DNA from: Bordetella genomosp. 2
GTDB taxonomy: Bacteria; Pseudomonadota; Gammaproteobacteria; Burkholderiales; Burkholderiaceae_B
Direction of reading: 5' to 3'
Length of the DNA stretch: 64,000 nucleotides
Assembly: GCF_002261345.1 (NCBI RefSeq)
Contig: NZ_NEVT01000003.1
Span: 620,001-684,000, forward strand
The stretch's first letter is position 1; each line of letters starts with the position of its first letter. This document shows positions 51,318 through 63,966 of the stretch, in pieces. The notes under the pieces were generated by a model. The model saw only the letters and a list, made by a program, of their open reading frames with translations, made no database searches and had not been told where the DNA came from. Made by a program: the position numbers and the translations under genes.

Positions 51318-53942
51318 GTGAAAATCATCAAGCCGTTGAGGCTGCTCGTCATGCCGAGGCCATATCGTTGGCGTGGAGGAATCCATCTCGCCGTTACCAT
51401 CGGTGCCCTGTGCGAGCATCGTGAAAGCGGGCCGTTGCTCTTGCCGGAGCATGCGCTGATGAATGAAGCGCTGCCGGAGCTCGATGCCGATGAAATGCTT
51501 GACTTCGTAATGCCCAAACCTCATCCCGAGTTCCTGGTCAGCGGGCACGCCTGTACAGCCCACCAACGGGATAAAACGAGTTGCATGGTCAGCGTGCGGG
51601 TGGCGGACAAGTGCAAAGATGTCCTGGTGCTAGGCGATCGCTATTGGCTGGACAATCGGATTTCCGATCCCCAGCCGTTCGAGTCCATGCCCTTGACATG
51701 GAACCGCTCATTTGGCGGTAGCGGCGTGCCGGAAAATCCCCTCGGCGTAGGCCTGGAGGAGGTTGAAGTCAATGGCGTACGCGTGGTGCCGCTGCCCAAC
51801 CTCGAATCGCCTACCGAGCGTATTCATGCCAAGGGCCAGCGCGTACGCCCCTGCAATATGGGCATGATCAGGGTGGATTGGCCGGAGAGGCTGAAGCAGT
51901 TCGGGTCGTGGGATCAGCAATGGCTGGAAGAGGTGGGTACGGGATTTTTCGACGACATGCAGCCGTCGGTTTTCAACGCGGCGGCCGATGATCAGATCTG
52001 GCGCGATCGCGATGAGCTGCCGCTGGGCGAGCCGTTCGAGATCTGGAACATGCAGCAAGAGCAGCAATGCTGGTCCGGCGCGCTTCCGCAGCTGCGCGCA
52101 CGCTGTTTCGTGAGCCGCCGCTATGAGGGCGGACGTCTCGATGAGATGGCGATGCGTTGCACGACGGTCTGGTTCGTGCCGCACCAGAAGCGCTACATAT
52201 TGCTGTTTCACGGCTCGCTGCCGATACATGAGGACGACGGACATGATGTGCTGGCGATCATGGCTGCCATAGAGCAGGCCGGACAGCCAAGGACACGCGA
52301 GCACTACGAGCAGATTTACGCGTTGCGCAACGATCGTCAACAAGCAGTGCTGCACGCATTCAAGGATGATGAGCTCATGCCAGGCGATATGCTGGCGCCG
52401 TGGCTCGAACAAACCGACCTGGGCAGCAACGCCATCGTCTCGAAACTGGGGCGCCTGCTTGGCGAAAGCGGGTTTCCTGCCGGAACATTTGTGGGGCCAG
52501 TCAAGCCGCTTACTTTGGGCGACCTGCCCGAACTCATCGAGGCTGGCAATAAGCTGCGGGAGGATACGCTCGCCGAACACCAGGCGGCCAGAGCGGCTGC
52601 CCTCGATCCGGCATGGGACGATGTAAAAGACGAAAGGCAGGCGGCGTGGCGCAAGCTTGACCAGGATATCTATCGCAATCTCGATTTTTCGCCCGATAGA
52701 AAGGAGGATTTCGTGCTGCCGGTAAGCGGCCCTCCCGAACTCGGCGACATGCACGGGCCGCCCAAGTCGCTGGAGCGGCGTCGGGAATATCGCCAGGCGG
52801 CGAGGGAAATAGGCAAAACGCCCAATGAGATGGCGGATTTTGTTCGCTCGTCCATGAACAAGCTGTACCTGTACTCCGTCCATTACCAGAATGGCGTGCC
52901 ACGGGTCGGGGCGCATCGGGCCGTTGCGCTGCGTGAGAGGGTAATGAAAAGGTACCGCCTCGGCCGCGATCTCTCGCGCATGGACCTTACCGGAGCGGAT
53001 CTGTCCGGCATGGACCTGTCTGGCGCGGATTTCACGGAAACCTGGCTGGAGAATGCGGACTTCAGCGGCAGCAATCTGTCGGGGGCGATGTTCAAGAAGA
53101 CGGTGCTGGCTCGCGCCACGCTGCGCAATGCCAAGCTGGACGGGGCGACCTTGTCCGGCTGCAATATCAGCGAAGCGATATTCAGCGGCTGCGCGCTGCA
53201 TGGTGCGCTGTGGAAGAAAGTCATATCCGAAAAAGGCACGCATATCGAAGATTGCACTTTCGAGGACGCACGCCTGGAAAATTTCGACTTCGAACGGGCC
53301 TGGTTCACGCGCGTGGAGTTTGCGTCCAGCAAACTGGATTCAGTCGATTTCCGCGAGTGCCAATTTAACGAGTGCGCCATCACCGCTTCAATCCTGGACA
53401 AGACTGATTTCGACAAGTGCAAGATTGCGGGCATGAGAGTGCGTTCCTGCGCGTGGACGGGCGCTATGCTCGACGAAACACTGATCGGCAATCTGGATAT
53501 GGAGGGCTGCCAAGTGCAGAAAACGACCTTCACGTCCTCGGTAACGTTGCACCAGAGCCGCATGGTGGACTGCATGTTCCAGCAAACTATGTTCCGGAGC
53601 GTGTGCTTTTCGGACGCGGACCTGTCTCGCTGCGTGTTCGAGCGCTGCGATCTGTCGGAAGCGAATTTCCACGGCTGCACGTTGCGGCAGATTCGTACGC
53701 CGCAGGCCATGTTCGTAAGAGCGAATTTCGATCTGGCGGACCTGTCTGGCGGAAACTTCATGTATGGCGTATTTCAGAAGGCCAGCTTTATCGGCGCGAA
53801 GCTGGCCGGCTGCAATTTCTTTCGAGCCGATATGAGCGAGACCCTGCTGGATGCGTCGACCGATGTCGCTGGAGCATACGTCCATCGCACGCGGCTGGTT
53901 CCCCGGCGTTCACCCGCCCGGTTGGTGGATGGTTCACTATGA
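51318..53942 (+). CDS. DUF2169 domain fused to pentapeptide repeats
   Basis: This is an 874-residue protein. The N-terminal DUF2169 domain (about 1-330) opens MKIIKPLRLLVMPRPYRWRGGIHLAVTIG and has PLTWNRSFGGSGVPENPLGVG. DUF2169 proteins are recurrent accessory factors next to vgrG and PAAR genes and are thought to load cargo. A linker of about 200 residues follows. Then come about 300 residues of pentapeptide repeats, A(D/N)LxG-like, starting DLTGADLSGMDLSGADF. This would form a right-handed quadrilateral helix. The stop overlaps the next start. Confidence 0.88.
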   Translation: MKIIKPLRLLVMPRPYRWRGGIHLAVTIGALCEHRESGPLLLPEHALMNEALPELDADEMLDFVMPKPHPEFLVSGHACTAHQRDKTSCMVSVRVADKCKDVLVLGDRYWLDNRISDPQPFESMPLTWNRSFGGSGVPENPLGVGLEEVEVNGVRVVPLPNLESPTERIHAKGQRVRPCNMGMIRVDWPERLKQFGSWDQQWLEEVGTGFFDDMQPSVFNAAADDQIWRDRDELPLGEPFEIWNMQQEQQCWSGALPQLRARCFVSRRYEGGRLDEMAMRCTTVWFVPHQKRYILLFHGSLPIHEDDGHDVLAIMAAIEQAGQPRTREHYEQIYALRNDRQQAVLHAFKDDELMPGDMLAPWLEQTDLGSNAIVSKLGRLLGESGFPAGTFVGPVKPLTLGDLPELIEAGNKLREDTLAEHQAARAAALDPAWDDVKDERQAAWRKLDQDIYRNLDFSPDRKEDFVLPVSGPPELGDMHGPPKSLERRREYRQAAREIGKTPNEMADFVRSSMNKLYLYSVHYQNGVPRVGAHRAVALRERVMKRYRLGRDLSRMDLTGADLSGMDLSGADFTETWLENADFSGSNLSGAMFKKTVLARATLRNAKLDGATLSGCNISEAIFSGCALHGALWKKVISEKGTHIEDCTFEDARLENFDFERAWFTRVEFASSKLDSVDFRECQFNECAITASILDKTDFDKCKIAGMRVRSCAWTGAMLDETLIGNLDMEGCQVQKTTFTSSVTLHQSRMVDCMFQQTMFRSVCFSDADLSRCVFERCDLSEANFHGCTLRQIRTPQAMFVRANFDLADLSGGNFMYGVFQKASFIGAKLAGCNFFRADMSETLLDASTDVAGAYVHRTRLVPRRSPARLVDGSL

Positions 53943-54982
53943 GCAAGCAGGCAATACTGGAGAAAGCCCATACGCTGGAGCTCATCCAGGATATGAGTGT
54001 GGCGGGCGATGTTTTCGACGAAGATATGTTGGAGGGAATGACATTCCAGAATGTCGACTTTTCGCGAGCGCTCCTGAAGCAGGCCTCTTTCAAGGACTGC
54101 ATTTTTTCCAAATGCCGGTTTGTCGGCCTGGTGGCTGAAGGTGCAAACTTCTCGGGTACGCGATTCATCGATTGTGATCTTGCCGACGCATCATTCGACA
54201 GATGCAATTTCCATCAGGCGGGTATTCTCACGACCGATTTGTCCCGGGTAGTATTCCGGGACTGCGAATGCGAAAAGCTGGATATTACGGACAGCAAGGC
54301 GGTGCAAGCTTGCTTCCGCGGACAGCGGTTGTACGATGTCAATTTCCTGGACGTTGTGCTGGACGGGGCGGATTTCAGCGGCGCGGACTTATCCAAGGCG
54401 CTGCTTTATGAACTCGACCTGCGCACAGTAGTATTGCAGGACGCCGTGCTGCAGGATGTGGCGTTTTCGGGATGCGATGTCTCCGGCCAGGATTTTGCCG
54501 GCCAGAATCTCGCGGGCGCCCAGTTCAATGAGGCTCGGCTTCATGAGGTGAACTTCTCGCGTTGCGCCCTGGCAATGAGCAATTTCAGCGACAGCAAAGT
54601 CGAGCGCAGCGCGTTCCTGGAAGCGGATGTGCGGGAGTCGTTGTTTGTCAATGCCGATATCCAGCAATCCAGTTTCGCTGGTGCCTGCCTCGACAGGACT
54701 CTATGGAATGGCGCGGTGGTGGTGGGCAGCGATTTTGGTTCCGCCAGCATGAACATGGCGGGGTTCCAGCAGGCCAATGTGGAAGGCTCCCGCTTCGTGG
54801 GCGCCGATTTGCAGTATGCAGATTTTTCTTATGCGCGGCTGGAGCACTGCTCTTTTGCAGACGCGTCCATGAACGAGACCAAATTTCACCGGGCCTTGTG
54901 CGACGCTGATTTGAAGCGCCGGGCCGGCGCAGTGGAGCGGGATGCCGAGTTGTTCGAGGCAGAGTTGTGGAGCGCGCGTTGA
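53939..54982 (+). CDS. Pentapeptide-repeat protein
   Basis: This 347-residue protein is made almost wholly of pentapeptide-like repeats from about residue 30 to 325 (NVDFSRALLKQASFKDCIFSKCRF, VLDGADFSGADLSKALL). An acidic C-terminus follows. The start overlaps the preceding stop (ATGA), so the pair is co-translated. The N-terminal helix (AILEKAHTLELIQDM) may cap the repeat helix. It may be a partner or immunity-like part for the fusion protein, which is inference. No signal peptide is present. Confidence 0.88.
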   Translation: MSKQAILEKAHTLELIQDMSVAGDVFDEDMLEGMTFQNVDFSRALLKQASFKDCIFSKCRFVGLVAEGANFSGTRFIDCDLADASFDRCNFHQAGILTTDLSRVVFRDCECEKLDITDSKAVQACFRGQRLYDVNFLDVVLDGADFSGADLSKALLYELDLRTVVLQDAVLQDVAFSGCDVSGQDFAGQNLAGAQFNEARLHEVNFSRCALAMSNFSDSKVERSAFLEADVRESLFVNADIQQSSFAGACLDRTLWNGAVVVGSDFGSASMNMAGFQQANVEGSRFVGADLQYADFSYARLEHCSFADASMNETKFHRALCDADLKRRAGAVERDAELFEAELWSAR

Positions 54983-59926: not shown

Positions 59927-60011
59927 GCCGACGTGGTGGAATTGGTAGACACGCTATCTTGAGGGGGTAGTGGCGAAAGCTGTGCGAGTTCGAGTCTCGC
60001 CGTCGGCACCA
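59927..60011 (+). tRNA. tRNA-Leu (anticodon GAG)
   Basis: This is an 85-nt type II tRNA with an encoded CCA. The acceptor GCCGACG pairs with CGTCGGC, the anticodon loop TTGAGGG gives GAG (reading CUC/CUU), and the T loop is TTCGAGT. It stands in the usual place after secG. Confidence 0.96.
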
Positions 60012-61731: not shown

Positions 61732-62355
61732 CTAGTGCTTCTTGCCCAGCATGCTGTCGCGCGCCTGTTCGGCCCGCGACGCGCCGATCGCGGTTTCCAC
61801 CTTCTTCACTTCCTCGGGCGGCGGCAGCACGGCTGGCATGCCCAGCGCTTCTATCCAGAGTTCGCGGGTCCAGCCTTTGGTGTGGTAGAGGTGGTGGTCC
61901 TCGTCCTTCTCGACGGCGTCGAATGCCTGCTTGAGCACCTTCGCGGTCGTGCCGTTCATTTTCTCGGCCAGCAGCCCGATCAGTTCCCAATTCAGGTGGT
62001 CCTTGGTTTCGGCCAGCACCACGCATTCCGCGGCGACGATCTGCGCGGCGGCCGGGTCGCCTTGCGTCTTCGCCAGCTCGATGGCCTTGACCAGCGATTT
62101 GCCGTGGTGCGCGACGACGGCGCGCGATGGCACGTCGGCGTCGGGGTCCAGCCCCAATTGTTCAAAGACGGTCAACAGGACCTGGCGGTGCGTGGTGGTT
62201 TCCTCCAGGTAGCCTTGCCACTCTTCCTTCAGGTCGTCGTTGATCGCGCAGCCGATCGCGGCCTGGTATACCTGCACGCCGCCCATTTCTGTTTCCAGGG
62301 CCTGGTAGAGCAGGTCTTCGACTTGGTTGGGTTTGATGCTTGCTGTCTTGGCCAT
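61732..62355 (-). CDS. Ferritin-like diiron protein
   Basis: This 207-residue protein has four-helix spacing of metal ligands: Glu in ALETEMGG, then EETTTHRQ (Glu-x3-His), Glu in AAECVVLAETKDHLNWE (Glu-x3-His), and a last helix with EKDEDHHLYH. The fold is close to the DUF892/YciE-type ferritin-like stress proteins, but I cannot name a subfamily. ATG 62355 follows CCGGAGAT. It may store or oxidise iron, or act in stress defence. Confidence 0.78.
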   Translation of the reverse strand: MAKTASIKPNQVEDLLYQALETEMGGVQVYQAAIGCAINDDLKEEWQGYLEETTTHRQVLLTVFEQLGLDPDADVPSRAVVAHHGKSLVKAIELAKTQGDPAAAQIVAAECVVLAETKDHLNWELIGLLAEKMNGTTAKVLKQAFDAVEKDEDHHLYHTKGWTRELWIEALGMPAVLPPPEEVKKVETAIGASRAEQARDSMLGKKH

Positions 62356-62441: not shown

Positions 62442-62945
62442 TCAGCCCTTGCTCGAGGCGTCCAGCCGCTTGACCTGTTCAGCGTGCTCTTTGCGGTCTT
62501 GCTCGAGCACGCGCAGTTTGTCGGCGAAGGCCGACAGTTCGTTGATCCAGCTCACCAGCATGCAGGCGTTGCAGATGGCCAGCGACACCAGGAAACCGGC
62601 CACGAACGGCACCCATGGCCCGCCGCCGGAGCCGTCCGCCAGGATGCCCAGCGCGTACAGCAGGACGCCCACGGCGGCATTGAAGGCAAAAGCCCGCCAG
62701 AACCGGGCGCGCATCTCGGTGCGCTTGATGGCATAGCGGTCGAGTTCGCGTGCGCGCAGCACGCCCGCGCCGGTGATGTTGTGGAACTGGCGAAAGAACC
62801 AGCCCAGCAGCCCCGTGACCAGTACGTTGATGCCCGACAGGCTCTTGATGGTGCTGGAAGCGCCGACGACGGGCAACAGCATGGCTGCCCCGCCATATGC
62901 CAGGGTAATGATTGCTATCACAGACCATCTGGCGAGTCGGGTCAT
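62442..62945 (-). CDS. RexB-like four-helix membrane protein
   Basis: This 167-residue protein has about four membrane segments (about 6-28, 37-52, 85-103 and 111-133) and a basic/acidic coiled tail. Its last membrane segment and exit (SLAICNACMLVSWINEL) and overall topology recall lambda RexB, a four-helix membrane channel in the Rex phage-exclusion system, from memory of that protein. It lies seven bases after the RexA-like gene, like the rexA-rexB order. The similarity is distant. Confidence 0.6.
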   Translation of the reverse strand: MTRLARWSVIAIITLAYGGAAMLLPVVGASSTIKSLSGINVLVTGLLGWFFRQFHNITGAGVLRARELDRYAIKRTEMRARFWRAFAFNAAVGVLLYALGILADGSGGGPWVPFVAGFLVSLAICNACMLVSWINELSAFADKLRVLEQDRKEHAEQVKRLDASSKG

Positions 62946-62952
62946 GGAGTAA

Positions 62953-63966
62953 TCAGGCTGAAATCACCTTGTTGCGGATGAGTTCACCGAGCCAGGTCGT
63001 CATGTCGGCATAGAAGGCGTCGATGTTCGGCACGCCGTCCACCGACCTGAGCGGTATCGTACTACTGATCTTCAAGTCGTTGCCCGAGACGGTGGTGCCG
63101 TCGGCGAGCTGCAGCGCCACGGTGTTCTCTTCCTGGTCGCGCAGCGCGATGCCCAGGTTGTCCATCAGCCGGACCGTGTCGCCCGGCTGGGCGCGGCTGC
63201 GTTTCGGGTAGCGGATCTCCAGCCATACTTCCAGGTTGCCGTCGAAGACCGCGTCTTCGATATCCAGCTTGGCGTAGCTGTCGTCGCCCATGAAGCCCTT
63301 GATCAGGGACAGCACGGTCGGGTCGGGCGCCAGCTTGGCGACGTTGCGCGCCTGCCCGGCGGCAAGCTGGACGGTCGAGCCGTCCGGCGCCGTGTGGGGC
63401 GCCTGGTTCATGAAAGGGCGGCCGATCGACACGGCTTTTACATGGGACTTGCGGATCCGTTCCTTGGTGGCTTTTTTCGGTTCGTCGACCAGGGCGATGC
63501 CGGCGTCCGGCCCGATGGCCCAGCACTGGTCGCGCAGCAGCCATGCCAGGTGCTGTTCCAGCCCGCTGGCGCGCAGGCTGGCCGATTGCACCAGGGCGAC
63601 ATGGTTGTCGATCAGGGCGAAGAACAGCACGCCGGGCACGAATTGCTGCTGCGTGCCGTTCATCTTGGGCGGCTGCAGCGCCGCCATGACCAGCGACGCG
63701 GCGTCCGGGTTGTCCTCGACCACCAGTTGGTGGCTGCCGCGCTCGAATGTCAGCAGCGTGCCGCACAAGGCAGCCCCCATCTGCCGCGGCTGGTTGATCA
63801 CGCGGCAGGCGTCGGCGGCCGCGTCGATGGTTTCGAGCCGGTCCTTGATGCGTTTCCGGTCGCCGAGCGCCGCGGCCAGCAACTGTTGCAGAGTCTGGGT
63901 ATTGGCCGGCTGCAACTGGCTGCGCCGGTAATAGACCTTTCTGGTGCTCGTCTTGCTCGTCGCCAC
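62953..63966 (-). CDS. RexA-like protein (possible phage-exclusion sensor)
   Basis: This 337-residue soluble protein starts at GTG 63966 with GGGAGG upstream. Its N-terminal basic stretch reads KVYYRRSQLQP. A middle block has FVPGVLFFALIDNHVALVQSASLRASGLEQHLAWLL, then a SHVKAVSIGRP block, then FDGNLEVWLEIRYPKRSR. These blocks come in the same order and spacing as those of lambda RexA as I remember it. RexA senses phage DNA complexes and triggers RexB. The membrane gene follows directly. Its own upstream region lies beyond the window. Confidence 0.55.
   Translation of the reverse strand: MATSKTSTRKVYYRRSQLQPANTQTLQQLLAAALGDRKRIKDRLETIDAAADACRVINQPRQMGAALCGTLLTFERGSHQLVVEDNPDAASLVMAALQPPKMNGTQQQFVPGVLFFALIDNHVALVQSASLRASGLEQHLAWLLRDQCWAIGPDAGIALVDEPKKATKERIRKSHVKAVSIGRPFMNQAPHTAPDGSTVQLAAGQARNVAKLAPDPTVLSLIKGFMGDDSYAKLDIEDAVFDGNLEVWLEIRYPKRSRAQPGDTVRLMDNLGIALRDQEENTVALQLADGTTVSGNDLKISSTIPLRSVDGVPNIDAFYADMTTWLGELIRNKVISA

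Follow-up and report, generated by a model that had tools for sequence, protein, structure and literature searches.

A chromosomal gene pair with RexAB-like architecture in Bordetella genomosp. 2 and its relatives in temperate phages

Introduction

By a count made in 2026, only five RexAB-like systems have been described (PMC12894663); in lambda, CarolAnn, Sbash and Pseudomonas putida, according to the same account, it is the membrane protein that acts as the effector. RexABpp, found in P. putida prophage P1 (PP_5643/PP_5644), combines a DNA-binding protein with a four-transmembrane (four-TM) effector, both of which are needed for defence; the two genes form an operon downstream of a CI-like repressor and the soluble protein, of ~37 kDa, has no useful BLAST annotation (PMC12894663). 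As reported there, growth arrest on overexpression of RexA depends on the membrane partner, a two-hybrid assay showed no contact between RexA and RexB, and re-adding rexA failed to restore defence (PMC12894663).

Comparable pairs are described for the actinobacterial phages CarolAnn (gp44/gp43) and Sbash (gp30/gp31), each a soluble protein of 370–372 amino acids (aa) with a four-TM protein of 165–178 aa, both again needed for defence (PMC6426606, PMC6426596); that of CarolAnn adjoins the repressor (PMC6426606). In mycobacteriophage Butters (gp30/gp31) the roles are described as reversed, the soluble protein being a toxin held at the membrane by its partner until infection (PMC12894663). The exclusion genes of Fc02, as presented in their published description, are unrelated to the pair reported here (PMC9936078). 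Judged by title, none of the literature found on RexAB and Bordetella concerned RexAB in Bordetella.

Results

Architecture of the gene pair

Within the window—the whole stretch of 64,000 nucleotides of Bordetella genomosp. 2 DNA that was analysed—two intact reading frames, here called A and B, follow one another in that order:

62953..63966, minus strand: gene A, a 337-aa soluble protein with a GTG start (ORF and match to phrog_3482)
62946..62952, minus strand: A–B spacer, 7 nt from the stop of A to the start of B, operon-like
62442..62945, minus strand: gene B, a 167-aa membrane protein with an ATG start (ORF and four hydrophobic segments)

Just 5′ of the GTG start of A we find AAGGGAGGGTGAA, a plausible ribosome-binding site. 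A Kyte–Doolittle window places the hydrophobic segments of B at residues 9–27, 33–51, 85–103 and 114–132, the second (33–51) being the weakest with a mean of 1.39; outside the segments lie a basic loop (55–80) and a charged C-terminus (130–167). The earlier note's description of a two-gene module, with a soluble protein preceding a four-segment membrane protein in the order and with the partner topology of rexA–rexB, is borne out by these ORFs. A SLATT-domain match to B (E 0.027) fell below cut-off and was treated as chance.

Compared by published description, the pair has the same soluble plus four-TM, two-gene architecture as RexABpp, and A is likewise without useful annotation; RexABpp, however, lies in a prophage and has been functionally tested, whereas the window pair lies outside one. 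At three of the seven published PP_5644 residue positions there is a match in five of the seven members of one B subfamily; the best scores among 49 other B proteins, taken as background, are four matches in one and three in two.

The family of gene A

A matches the PHROG family phrog_3482 with an E-value of 3.5e-50, its residues 1–335 aligning to positions 1–342 of the 344-position profile; the family has no assigned function, and its entry does not include the partner B. Pfam, PADLOC and NCBIfam gave no significant match to A, and its two weak Pfam matches at E ≤10 include neither KilA-N, the domain that serves as a label of BstA, nor DUF4868, the label of Kiwa.

Relatives are rare and divergent. 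By tblastn they occur in 9 of 50,697 phage records (25–28% identity over 82–85% of the query) and in 7 of 72,556 records of a plasmid collection, several of these being chromosome-sized. Single-protein queries of genomic and viral contigs retrieved no relatives whereas alignment queries did retrieve some, and alignment-based scans of viral contigs, genomic contigs and whole genomes gave at least 253 ORF hits, 134 of them distinct and 121 of at least 300 aa; two of the contig scans contributed the best 80 of 86 and the best 80 of 93 loci. These 121 comprise 83 from viral contigs, 16 from genome contigs, 18 from searched genomes and 4 from phage or plasmid records, so that the phage share partly reflects the choice of collection and the spread is not an unbiased sample.

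After reduction to 80% redundancy, all 69 diverse relatives match phrog_3482. The best-conserved residues amongst them are Y13, R43 (present in 69/69), N58, N121, H122, E137 and R276, every one of which is kept in the window protein, and the most conserved part of the molecule is L114–L144, a hydrophobic hairpin followed by a helix. The closest relative found (G141) is 39% identical in the alignment and has a symporter gene on one side and a phage-type integrase on the other; another relative carries the depositors' annotation ‘DefenseFinder protein’. A member-by-member Pfam scan of the 69 relatives found, among the matches listed (25 of 38 families), no family in more than two members; the LapA domain PF20579, matched at E 0.00075 by a single Acinetobacter relative (1/69), was treated as chance. 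In one subgroup (L303, L304, L311, L312, L030 and L031) the B proteins share the motif ‘FSILAGFL’, and A can be linked to the core family only through profile comparison (99.4%); these B proteins appear slightly RexB-like by eye (hhalign E 0.29).

Comparison with RexA and RexB

Profile similarity to RexA and RexB, a check proposed with the earlier note, did not emerge by any of the routes taken. The reference models perform as they should on lambda RexA (PF15969, 1e-97; PADLOC RexA, 9e-110; phrog_12654, 6.4e-163), and lambda RexB is likewise recognised by its own; A gives no match to the three RexA models at E ≤10, and B none to PF15968 or phrog_14878. Our own nine-sequence RexA profile, run over 7476 ORFs, returned 33 hits, none of them in the A family at E ≤10, whilst an eight-sequence RexB profile reached its best B-family member at E 0.12; hhalign gave a weak E of 0.061 for B, at a probability of 0.9%. 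Scanning the 69 relatives one by one in Pfam, PHROGs and PADLOC brought up no RexA or RexB link, and a profile search of PDB sequences with the A family gave no hits at E ≤10; the RexA/RdgC two-domain fold is that of 8TWQ. A RexA Pfam search across 200 genomes was silent in its controls as well, and carries no information on absence.

Aligned to RexA by hhalign without secondary structure (43 versus 9 sequences), the A family scored a P-value of 0.87; the accepted homologue CarolAnn gp44 was also missed (P 0.26), so that the comparison has little power and leaves room for a distant kinship between A and RexA. The CarolAnn and Sbash pairs themselves gave no significant hhalign match to the A family. 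Of the ordered RexA-like blocks listed in the earlier note, two (IGR and FD) show no conservation across the A family; the hydrophobic hairpin and helix of L114–L144, the most conserved part of A, resemble a stretch of RexA by eye, which we treat as a lead only. A forced, low-confidence hhalign path follows the order of the proposed blocks; its score is null and it was not counted as evidence.

Set against lambda RexA/RexB (PF15969/PF15968), then, the gene order, the topology of the partner and—in phage relatives—the CI-adjacent place are alike, whereas A is longer (337 versus 279 aa), as is B (167 versus 144 aa), the window pair is not in a prophage, and sequence similarity is not detectable. 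Since the defining model tests failed, we do not class the pair as members of RexA/RexB.

Pairing with a downstream membrane protein

Pairing was scored where the next ORF encoded 90–260 aa with at least two hydrophobic segments, at a gap of −60 to 200 nt. By this rule, a membrane-protein ORF lies directly downstream of A in 118 of the 121 distinct full-length relatives (66 of 69 in the 80% redundancy set), and in both sets the same remaining three pair by inspection: in L210 the partner starts 79 nt inside A, in L154 it is 294 aa long, and in L165 it has one segment at the strict cut-off, a situation resembling that of the partner in L163. The gaps themselves range from −57 to +64 nt, with a median of 2.5. 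Amongst other ORFs of at least 250 aa in the first 53 loci, only 2 of 165 satisfied the rule; this control takes in spurious reading frames, and the contrast with A is thus somewhat flattered. Taken with the match to phrog_3482, the recurrence of the downstream membrane-protein ORF means that the pairing of A with B is not due to chance. The B proteins, for their part, diverge far more than A. Deposited names may hide such effectors: one B partner is entered as ‘holin-x’ and a RexB as ‘biopolymer transporter ExbB’ (L279:4881-5384, L133:3356-3784).

Relatives in temperate phages

The place of rexAB beside a repressor, which the earlier note had compared with lambda, is indeed held by relatives in temperate phages. 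The genes of Escherichia phage Perceval run CI-A-B-kil-gam-bet, with A–B in the position of rexAB in lambda; in the Acinetobacter phages phi1_092021 and Ab1656-2 one small ORF intervenes between repressor and A–B, and an S24-type repressor precedes A–B in L011 and (by eye) in L309. Other settings differ: in SfIV and a Klebsiella phage-plasmid the pair belongs to the late region, close to holin and Q, and in L010 it lies near tail genes. The neighbourhoods inspected vary, many with phage genes, and the constant link to an unrelated housekeeping pathway that would have counted against the comparison is not what they show. In Shigella phage SfIV (L006:3501-4324), B is only 108 aa long and abuts an IS1 transposase gene, its close relatives being 170 aa; in a Dechloromonas MAG (L112:6992-8675), a HipB/HipA-like pair stands beside A–B, with an integrase-like gene upstream (by eye).

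We scored repressor linkage with an iterated repressor profile, as a CI-like ORF upstream of A on the same strand. Amongst non-redundant viral A loci, such an ORF lies within 500 bp in 9 of 37 (other genes, 2/133); with the limit set at 3 kb, the count is 16 of 37 (other genes, 29/133). Over all sources the corresponding figures are 10/57 and 17/57, leaving 47/57 loci at 500 bp and 40/57 at 3 kb without a CI-like neighbour. The excess near A, in what remains a minority of loci, indicates that the immunity region is a favoured, rather than the usual, place for the pair.

The chromosomal site in Bordetella

The distribution of A–B is patchy. A is present in one of nine genomes of the genus, its own, and absent from all eight other congeners (8/8); wider samples contain it in 4/268 genomes of the family, 10/398 of a phylum sample and 8/398 for Pseudomonadaceae. 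Searches aimed at PP_5643 brought up relatives of A, among which that gene itself was not recognised. Two further features frame the pair in the window:

61732..62355, minus strand: ferritin-like gene, 207 aa, co-directional and 86 nt downstream of B (DUF892 match at E 0.013, below cut-off)
59927..60011, plus strand: tRNA-Leu (GAG), identified by ARAGORN, at the border of the variable stretch that holds A–B

The neighbours of A–B comprise this ferritin-like gene, cytochrome b561, an RcnB-like protein, Mn catalase, DUF892 and DUF763 proteins and a permease. Amongst the ORFs within ~12 kb upstream we see no phage gene or integrase (by eye, with ten proteins examined by Pfam), and there is no CI-like repressor within the 1497 bp tested or among the Pfam-named neighbours. 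On this reading of the neighbourhood, by Pfam and by eye, the earlier note was right to place the copy outside any recognisable lambdoid prophage. Elsewhere in the window (51318-54982), two adjacent long proteins, the first of 874 aa, appear by eye to be rich in pentapeptide-like repeats.

Four congeners have no A–B in this region, and carry copies of the ferritin-like gene (83–86% identical) on the other side of the tpiA–secG block; there the gene is flanked by a DedA-like gene and tRNA-Leu(TAA), whereas in the window it is found past secG and tRNA-Leu(GAG). Because congeners carry it elsewhere and without A–B, the ferritin-like gene is probably not part of the module; its position beyond tpiA–secG, together with the absence of A–B, also indicates that the stretch has been rearranged. 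In one of these four congeners (G003), a tyrosine integrase directly follows the same tRNA-Leu, and further along come genes for MobA/MobL, YqaJ, C5 methylase, Vsr and helicases; in appearance the island is an integrative element that carries a block of defence genes at this site. It also holds (L295:4826-L296:13778) NERD/UvrD and DEAD helicases and a 1013-aa protein with no Pfam match. Rearrangement in the congeners and the integrase island of G003 together define the stretch from tRNA-Leu to Mn catalase as a variable site; att-like repeats of the tRNA end were found neither near A–B nor in G003.

Discussion

Two adjacent ORFs, one with four hydrophobic segments, strict pairing across divergent relatives, occurrence in temperate phages, an excess next to CI-type repressors and a patchy distribution form the observed basis for what follows. 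The reading we favour, and consider probable by analogy with described systems, is that A–B is a mobile two-gene abortive-infection (phage-exclusion) module that works like lambda RexAB. On these precedents, from which we infer DNA binding, a dimeric state, the trigger, A–B contact, membrane opening and defence itself, A would act in the cytosol as a sensor of phage replication complexes or phage proteins, probably binding DNA as a dimer, and once triggered would activate B; B, a predicted four-helix protein of the inner membrane, would then oligomerise and open the membrane, leading to a growth stop and an aborted infection. The pair is probably prophage-derived: it would be carried chiefly by temperate phages, in many cases next to the repressor, and the copy in the window may be one transferred to, or left over in, a plastic chromosomal site. 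Against the RexAB-like reading weigh the failure to detect a sequence link to RexA or RexB, the majority of loci lacking a CI-like neighbour (the window copy among them), the strong divergence of B, and the P. putida results on RexA–RexB contact and on re-adding rexA.

A reversal of roles, as in Butters gp30/gp31, with A as the antiviral toxin and B holding it at the membrane until infection, would suit the same architecture and also the conservation of A beside a much further diverged B; in the functional precedents that lie nearest (lambda, CarolAnn, Sbash and P. putida), however, the effector is the membrane protein, and we regard the reversal as unlikely. Somewhat less likely still is prophage housekeeping, in which A would tune the lysogeny switch with B as an accessory, the pair being idle outside a prophage. 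Adjacency to CI in some phages fits this idea, as does a described bias of the CI/Cro switch by lambda RexA (PMC11077077), but many loci lack a CI neighbour and the pair also occurs between holin and Q, near tail genes and outside prophages; with positions as varied as these, controlling a single switch cannot be what the pair does in general. P. putida RexA, moreover, is reported to leave repressor expression unchanged (PMC12894663).

That the copy is a degenerate relic, functionless in this genome, might be read from its solitary position outside a prophage and its absence from 8/8 other congeners; intact frames, a ribosome-binding site, the 7-nt spacing and retention of the residues conserved in the family make this very improbable. 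Scarcely credible is a stress-response pair acting with the ferritin-like, Mn-catalase and cytochrome b561 genes: these three do flank A–B in the window, but congeners keep them without A–B between, relatives of A–B elsewhere have other neighbours, and the distribution thus largely refutes the idea.

Beyond the phage-exclusion reading of this one locus, and more tentatively—we would give it somewhat less than an even hearing—phrog_3482 and its fast-evolving four-TM partners may constitute a RexAB-type immunity lineage in its own right, large and spread over proteobacterial temperate phages, unnamed in the defence catalogues used, with numerous different membrane effectors joined to a conserved sensor; in the present genome the pair would have parted from its phage and become a chromosomal host defence.

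For decades it has been an open question how RexA detects infection and how it opens RexB. If the family works as proposed, the five known RexAB-like systems would be joined by others to give more than a hundred distinct pairs, one of them located precisely where rexAB would sit, in an Escherichia phage, and testable in K-12, with the invariant residues R43, Y13, N121–H122, E137 and R276 available for probing; and the Bordetella locus would provide an example of a RexAB-like pair that persists, both partners intact, without a surrounding prophage.
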